Assembly (NCBI RefSeq): GCF_004135625.1
Contig: NZ_SDPV01000002.1
Coordinates: forward strand, 62,001 to 126,000
Source of the DNA: Pelagerythrobacter rhizovicinus
GTDB lineage: Bacteria > Pseudomonadota > Alphaproteobacteria > Sphingomonadales > Sphingomonadaceae
Length of the DNA: 64,000 nucleotides
Reading direction: 5' to 3'
Positions within the stretch are counted from its first letter, which is position 1; each line of letters opens with the position of its first letter. This document shows positions 8,818 through 9,251 of the stretch, one piece after another. The notes beneath the pieces were generated by a model. The model made no database searches and was not told where the DNA came from. It saw nothing but the letters and a program-made list of their open reading frames with translations. The position numbers were made by a program, and so were the translations under genes.

Positions 8818-8818
<1 letters not shown>

Positions 8819-8855
8819 CCCTCTCCCCTTCAGGGGAGAGGGTTGGGAGAGGGGG
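8818..8855 (+). repeat. Left terminal repeat of the DUF559 cassette
   Basis: Contains the stem CTCTCCCC / GGGGAGAG with loop TTCA, then GGGTTGGGAGAGGGGG. The purine-rich end acts as the ribosome-binding site for the DUF559 ATG at 8859, three bases farther on. Confidence 0.8.
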
Positions 8856-8858
8856 ACA

Positions 8859-9251
8859 ATGCGCGACGCCGGCTCACTCAAACACGCACAGCGTATGCGC
8901 AAGGAGATGACCGAGCCGGAAACGCGACTGTGGCTCGAAGTGCGCGCGGCACGCTTTCGTGGGATCAAGTTCCGCCGCCAGAAGGTCATCGGGAACTTCA
9001 TCGCTGACTTCGTGGCGAACGAACCCAAACTGGTGCTGGAGGTGGATGGCGACACCCATGCGGCGCAGACTAGCTATGACGCGCGGCGCACTGCGTTTCT
9101 GGAAGAGCAAGGGTATCGCGTGGTCAGATTTACGAACTCGGATGTGATGGCGAATATGGATGGCGTGCTGGATCGACTTGGGAATATAATCCACGAAATG
9201 CTTCGGCCCCCTTTCCCAACCCTCTCCCCTGAAGGGGAGAGGGCTATATGA
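8859..9251 (+). CDS. DUF559-domain (Vsr/PD-(D/E)XK-like) endonuclease
   Basis: A 130-residue protein with the DUF559 pattern: helix MTEPETRLWLEVRAARFRG, then IKFRRQKVIGNFIADFV, then KLVLEVDGDTHA. Putative metal/catalytic residues are D50, E61, D63 and H67, as in Vsr-like nucleases. The last residues [14 protein letters not shown] are encoded by the right terminal repeat, and the stop overlaps the trpA ATG (ATGA). The ribosome-binding site comes from the left repeat. Nuclease activity is inferred from fold family; biological role is unknown. Confidence 0.85.
   Translation: MRDAGSLKHAQRMRKEMTEPETRLWLEVRAARFRGIKFRRQKVIGNFIADFVANEPKLVLEVDGDTHAAQTSYDARRTAFLEEQGYRVVRFTNSDVMANMDGVLDRLGNIIHEMLRPPFPTLSPEGERAI
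9207..9244 (-). repeat. Right terminal repeat of the DUF559 cassette (inverted)
   Basis: Inverted copy of the left end. It contains CTCTCCCCtgaaGGGGAGAG, encodes the C-terminal 12 or so residues of the DUF559 protein and ends three bases before the trpA ATG. Confidence 0.8.

Follow-up and report, generated by a model that had tools for sequence, protein, structure and literature searches.

The 64-kb window studied here, the whole stretch of Pelagerythrobacter rhizovicinus DNA that was analysed, carries a short ORF (8859-9251) between trpB and trpA. Pfam assigned it to DUF559 (PF04480, E 3e-37) and to one related nuclease model, and to nothing else. The ORF lies within inverted repeats of a family that appears to have three blocks: a pyrimidine arm (b), its purine counterpart (b') and a further purine block (a') mirroring b'. 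The usual layout seems to be one repeat on each side of the DUF559 gene, with the a' blocks pointing to the gene. The features are as follows.

7577..8818, + strand: trpB, the upstream neighbour (start picked by reading; the longest ORF starts further upstream)
8819..8842, + strand: left hairpin, with b at 8819-8828, loop at 8829-8832 and b' at 8833-8842
8845..8855, + strand: left a' block, gene-proximal, GGGAGAGGGGG, doubling as a purine-rich stretch ahead of the start codon
8859..9251, + strand: DUF559 nuclease-like gene, an ORF of 130 aa with a Pfam match and a predicted PD-(D/E)XK/Vsr-like fold
9207..9217, - strand: right a' block, gene-proximal, within the 3' end of the DUF559 ORF
9220..9243, - strand: right hairpin (b, loop, b'), within the 3' end of the DUF559 ORF
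9248..10027, + strand: trpA, the downstream neighbour, whose start overlaps the DUF559 stop
52525..52548, + strand: left palindrome of a gene-less pair, of the window repeat family
52631..52654, - strand: right palindrome of the gene-less pair, of variant sequence

The first-pass annotation had proposed that inverted hairpin ends enclose a DUF559 gene located between trpB and trpA; the ORF, the Pfam match, the alignment of the arms and their folding confirmed this. The arms 8812-8862 and 9200-9250 are inverted over 51 nt with 90% complementarity, and each folds into a hairpin closed by a loop of 4 nt (DNA z of -2.80 on the left and -2.55 on the right). The ends had been described as identical inverted 38-bp repeats; they are inverted and hairpin-forming, but a single base differs between the 38-nt cores, which makes "identical" a slight overstatement. 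The right end does code for the last residues of the protein, the DUF559 stop and the trpA start overlapping in ATGA, and the gene-less copy reported elsewhere in the window corresponds to the palindrome pair 52525-52548 / 52631-52654. The left a' block was placed from the sequence and the rule of gene-proximal orientation, mirror and direct-copy scores being tied for the left copy, as they are at both window ends. Rfam at gathering thresholds found two tRNAs in the 64-kb window and nothing else.

The AlphaFold model of the protein had a pLDDT of 86. In fold it matched NGO0050 at E 5e-9, I-Bth0305I, a homing endonuclease, at E 1e-4 and Vsr at E 4e-3, with some mitoribosomal proteins and PvuRTs1I scoring at E-values similar to that of Vsr; a profile search gave 3HRL (1.5e-37) and 3R3P (0.0019). 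By Pfam and the modelled fold, the window protein is predicted to be a PD-(D/E)XK nuclease. Its likeness to I-Bth0305I (3R3P) would lie in the fold and in a weak sequence similarity to DUF559. I-Bth0305I acts from an intron or intein context, unlike the DUF559 units, which are free-standing and bracketed by repeats. With Vsr, which nicks DNA at T:G mismatches and works together with a methylase, the predicted likeness is one of fold alone. YcjD of E. coli was earlier treated as a PD-(D/E)XK member (PMC1189080). VsrA of Caulobacter, which has a DUF559 domain, was required for the SOS response in a methylase mutant (PMC12907096); by analogy, DUF559 proteins may damage DNA in the cell.

The 24-nt palindrome of the window family (up to 3 mismatches) occurs 29 times in the 3.0-Mb genome and the reversed pattern once, which argues against chance. 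The pattern CCCTCCCGC gave 31 copies against 0 reversed, and the CCTCCCC pattern gave a weaker contrast (54 against 28). Thirteen consecutive spacings between window-family palindromes fall in 70-120 nt, and the single spacing within 200-1000 nt, one of 401 nt, contains the trpB-trpA DUF559 gene. Over the three patterns close pairs are frequent (39-120 nt from start to start). Gaps of 350-600 nt number five, and all five contain DUF559 genes; this count covers the listed places (29/29, 50/54 and 31/31 palindromes), the third pattern being judged by eye. Two longer gaps, of 825 and 873 nt, separate close pairs.

The genome has six DUF559 matches, and reading of their flanks found hairpin repeats on both sides of 6/6, with differing sequences. 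In one of them, L005, the match begins at profile position 31 and the gene appears frameshifted on reading, so a motif-intact domain is not always an intact gene. Another, L006, has lost the catalytic motif, and its flanking repeats are of another type, direct and not inverted (inverted score 29, direct 99). Repeats resembling CGTC-type REPs (GTCATGCTGAACTCGTTTCAG; ATCCCAGCTTTCGCTGGGATGACG) were observed beside L006 and also at the trpB-trpA junction of a relative, L117, that is without the DUF559 unit. Di Nocera (2013) described CGTC-tagged REPs of Alphaproteobacteria with no dedicated enzyme in the account available (PMC3733652). The DUF559-linked palindromes resemble these REPs in being dispersed with no known enzyme, and differ from them in sequence.

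We then scored the flanks of DUF559 genes in other genomes by aligning the left flank with the reverse complement of the right flank, with a threshold of at least 40. The 59 Sphingomonadales genomes, including that of P. rhizovicinus, held 111 matches in 44 genomes; 95 were used, the 16 weaker or partial ones being excluded, and 89 of the 95 had at least 300 nt on each side. Inverted repeats on both sides scored at least 40 at 60/89 loci, against 5.2% of 2199 swapped pairs. Motif-intact genes accounted for most of them (58/72, against 2/17 for copies with a changed E-x-D motif, namely L097 and L071, the latter with the E alone changed). For a cross-phylum set with one genome per species, the 80 highest-ranking of at least 583 pattern matches, from many phyla, were taken and 75 were usable. 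Here 55/75 loci reached the threshold. Swapped pairs did so in 9% of 2212 cases and control positions within the same loci in 0.15% of 1302; the sample is not random, the loci having been picked by GGQH and FWNN motifs. When the combined set was clustered at 60% identity and a single member drawn from each of the 26 clusters, about 20 scored at least 40 (mean of 200 draws). The claim that repeat and gene belong together was upheld, and similar repeats flank DUF559 genes in other genomes.

DUF559 relatives are also present in 41 plasmid records. One locus (L045, G024:C1:571818-572573) has a tandem pair of DUF559 domain matches in a single 316-aa open frame. Very long open frames (1116-1991 aa) in G013, G029, G031, G034, G039, G047, G133 and G145 contain weak matches to DUF559 (E 5e-7 to 4e-4), and these long frames differ from the free-standing, repeat-flanked DUF559 genes.

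A hairpin with a purine arm was found at 253/306 ends of motif-intact genes, against 16/1120 control windows. The third block was gene-proximal to the hairpin at 206 ends and distal at 30, with 16 ties. At 227 ends with asymmetric arms it was nearer to the mirror of b' in 137 cases and nearer to a direct copy in 19, with 71 ties, T being allowed in place of A in mirror scoring. Third blocks swapped between ends fitted worse (mean 0.80 against 0.91), and they too leaned slightly towards the mirror (1166 against 964, with 2410 ties). We also considered a different hairpin, in which b pairs with the third block, and rejected it: it would give a direct copy, and the mirror fits better across all ends. 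Since a' mirrors b', the strand could form either a hairpin or an intrastrand triplex.

The b-b'-a' layout found across the DUF559 loci is that of the intrastrand triplex motif (TM, TMECO, PIT) of Holder et al. (2015), which was counted 3610 times in 262 proteobacterial genomes (PMC4666352); the window copy has a second spacer of 2 nt, against 3 in the published pattern. In the available text of that study no mobility gene lay near the E. coli motif copies, and a term search of its main text found none of "ycjD", "DUF" and "endonuclease" (PMC4666352). Unlike that account, as far as its main text goes, the present analysis links triplex motifs to a nuclease. The link between DUF559 and repeats was likewise absent from the accessible text of open-access PMC papers containing "DUF559"; subscription papers and preprints lay outside this search, so the link may already be in print.

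Gene and repeat also match one to one. In genomes with at least two motif-intact DUF559 genes, the left repeat fitted the gene's own right repeat above that of any paralogue for 51/59 genes. Among pairs below 72% identity, protein identity correlated with repeat similarity (rho 0.44, where 300 permutations reached at most 0.10); taxonomy was unmodelled, and the relatedness of the genomes makes the permutation and control figures overstate independence. At least three palindromes of the pattern CCTCNCCC..GGGNGAGG, which was picked after the repeats had been seen, occurred in 33/38 Sphingomonadales genomes with motif-intact DUF559 and in 0/21 without (15 with no match, 3 with motif-lost copies only and 3 with weak long-frame matches only). 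The other 5/38 genomes have fewer than three copies by CCTCNCCC..GGGNGAGG, and their DUF559 flanks have other repeat sequences.

In E. coli K-12, ycjD is a DUF559 gene (E 1e-49). By reading, its 3' end carries a decayed repeat, and about 170 nt beyond lies a full triplex motif, which is no. 9 of the published table (PMC4666352). Two ycjD queries at a coverage of at least 80% matched 3333 and 3364 of 5426 E. coli genomes. Other lineages have a different operon at the site (PMC12817139). We sampled 60 E. coli records at even steps, one partial record being dropped, and counted motif places by BLAST, including the ycjD place. The median was 22 in 36 ycjD-positive chromosomes and 10 in 23 ycjD-negative ones, one of which reached 23; these counts follow lineages and are therefore not independent evidence. 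By exact motifs, the type strain, which lacks ycjD, has 3, against 23 published for K-12.

Among 89 Enterobacteriaceae genomes, the 55 of at least 3 Mb were counted for palindromes. Where the DUF559 match is full-length (9 genomes), the palindromes number 15-248 in 9/9 cases, two genomes with DUF559 fragments have 66 and 18, and 44 were counted as lacking DUF559 (four with weak matches), 35 of them with fewer than 10 palindromes and 9 with 10-41. Inverted repeats on both sides reached the threshold of 40 at none of ten tested Enterobacteriaceae loci (highest 25). The repeat lies on the 3' side only, within about 70 nt of the domain, at 9/9 full-length loci as judged by eye.

Whether the gene itself moves was judged from its loci. 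All DUF559 pairs of at least 72% identity (22 motif-intact by our count, the rest belonging to the motif-lost paralogue) have neighbouring genes in common, on one side or on both. In the 60-71% range a locus is shared across genera by some pairs, and many lie at different loci, so the gene may have relocated or been duplicated over long times. Four genomes, from two genera, have the trpB-trpA unit, its four genes forming one clade (support 0.979), and it is missing in two close relatives; it was therefore probably gained once and then lost, or exchanged at the site. Nine pairs, including one from the motif-lost paralogue, gave dN/dS values of 0.03-0.15 for the DUF559 domain, and by this measure the gene is under purifying selection. 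We looked for target duplication at three sites, the gene-less pair in the window and two E. coli sites, and found neither a duplication nor a clean empty allele; the repeat-less alleles at these sites reflect local replacement or deletion between repeats.

Some further observations concern these loci. The trpB-trpA junction is variable among relatives (L118, L120, L123-L126, L129 and L134): several have differing inserts of about 180-310 nt, some of them resembling by eye small membrane-protein ORFs, and in others the two genes abut. The motif-lost paralogue, in which E-x-D-G-x-x-H is gone (L006, L097, L100-L110), keeps one locus across genera, and one of its pairs has a dN/dS of 0.03; from its sequence it is a candidate for a domesticated, catalytically dead protein. 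In E. coli PSJ-23 (L275), compared with L272, a pair of triplex motifs has collapsed, apparently by deletion between two copies of CCCTCTCCCT. At the level of aligned sequences this collapse is a direct view of repeat-linked instability.

Sequence comparison has established the association, the matching, the co-occurrence, the stable loci, the purifying selection and the predicted nuclease fold, and several explanations compete for them. Among the alternatives the one that survives best, and that we still regard as unlikely, is that DUF559 serves the host in repair or quality control and deals with trouble caused by the repeats, such as stalled or folded DNA, with the repeats acting as sensor or autoregulator and spread by another process. 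The published link of triplex repeats to instability (PMC4666352), the need for VsrA in the DNA-damage response of the Caulobacter methylase mutant (PMC12907096) and the purifying selection on DUF559 agree with such a role. However, the repeats are nearly missing from Sphingomonadales without motif-intact DUF559, the reverse of the trace expected of a cleaner, and the one-to-one matching of repeats and paralogues is more in keeping with a dedicated partner than with a general cleaner.

That the gene and its two ends form a transposable cassette moving as a unit is a distinctly improbable reading. The inverted ends do surround a single gene, the gene-less copies are MITE-like, the five gene-sized gaps in the P. 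rhizovicinus genome contain DUF559 only, and there are the many pairs of 60-71% identity at different loci. Against these stand the common loci of pairs of at least 72% identity, the single clade of trpB-trpA copies and the fact that no target duplication was seen at the three compared sites. Since close relatives of the gene keep their locus, the earlier idea of a readily hopping cassette was not supported.

The repeats might instead be REPs of the usual kind, mobilised by a RAYT or another transposase of the IS200/IS605 type while DUF559 is a mere passenger, which we consider very unlikely. Close palindrome pairs recall REPINs, and a Y1 transposase (PF01797) was found in 13/59 Sphingomonadales genomes. 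Yet repeat abundance tracks DUF559, and the Y1 search found none in 46/59 genomes and 0 in that of P. rhizovicinus, for which RAYT as the enzyme was rejected. The first-pass suggestion of a mobiliser other than a known transposase fits this count, a REP transposase not being required. Finally, the repeats could be transcription terminators, or hairpins that lie next to short genes by chance. A termination role was presumed for the palindromes of Enterobacter 638 (PMC2869309), and hairpins in mostly intergenic DNA would agree with it, but the idea is scarcely credible given the control rates (0.15% at the same locus; 16/1120 windows), window repeats inside an ORF and ahead of a start codon, and a family-specific sequence with a third block.

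The reading we prefer is that the window unit is probably a member of a widespread system in which a DUF559 protein is paired with its own repeat, and in which the repeat spreads via homing-like repair. For recognition, cutting and spread of the repeats, we infer that each DUF559 protein would recognise its own family's repeat in folded form and nick or break DNA at the repeat or at a target, and that subsequent repair would copy the repeat into a new location. The repeats would thus spread, leaving gene-less close pairs dispersed through the genome, while the gene would stay in place, as RAYTs do for REPINs. Such homing-like break-and-copy would agree with the fold, with a gene that keeps its locus and with the failure to see duplications. 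Several observations speak against this reading: the one-sided repeats of the Enterobacteriaceae, the 9/44 large genomes counted as lacking DUF559 that nevertheless have 10-41 palindromes, the 5/38 Sphingomonadales genomes with few copies, the ties at both window ends, the many pairs of 60-71% identity at different loci, and the finding of local replacement in place of a clean empty site.

REPs and REPINs are dispersed palindromes associated with a RAYT (TnpA-REP, a tyrosine transposase), the gene for which is bracketed by its own repeat family. The DUF559 system was found to share with them a gene bracketed by its own palindrome family, dispersed close pairs and gene-less copies, and also fixed loci for close gene relatives (at least 72% identity, the 60-71% range being mixed). 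Unlike RAYT, the protein is PD-(D/E)XK and Vsr-like (PF04480) and not an HUH Y1 transposase (PF01797). The DUF559 repeat further differs in its third mirror block, and a genome can have up to several DUF559 paralogues, every one paired with a different repeat. By this comparison the system would be a new element, in which an unrelated enzyme class is paired with intrastrand-triplex repeats; by function alone, it would be a variant of the RAYT/REPIN kind. We are evenly divided on the broader proposal, that DUF559 proteins are the missing spreading enzymes of the bacterial intrastrand-triplex repeats, acting by break-and-copy in many phyla as an independent counterpart of RAYT/REPIN, with YcjD in this role in E. 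coli.

If the proposal is true, dispersed palindromes are maintained across many phyla by a nuclease with a homing-endonuclease fold instead of a transposase. The partnership could account for a widespread repeat whose origin was unexplained, that of E. coli included, and ycjD makes the partnership of enzyme and repeat directly testable there. It could also account for DNA damage by DUF559 proteins such as VsrA and for repeat-linked variation between the genomes of strains.
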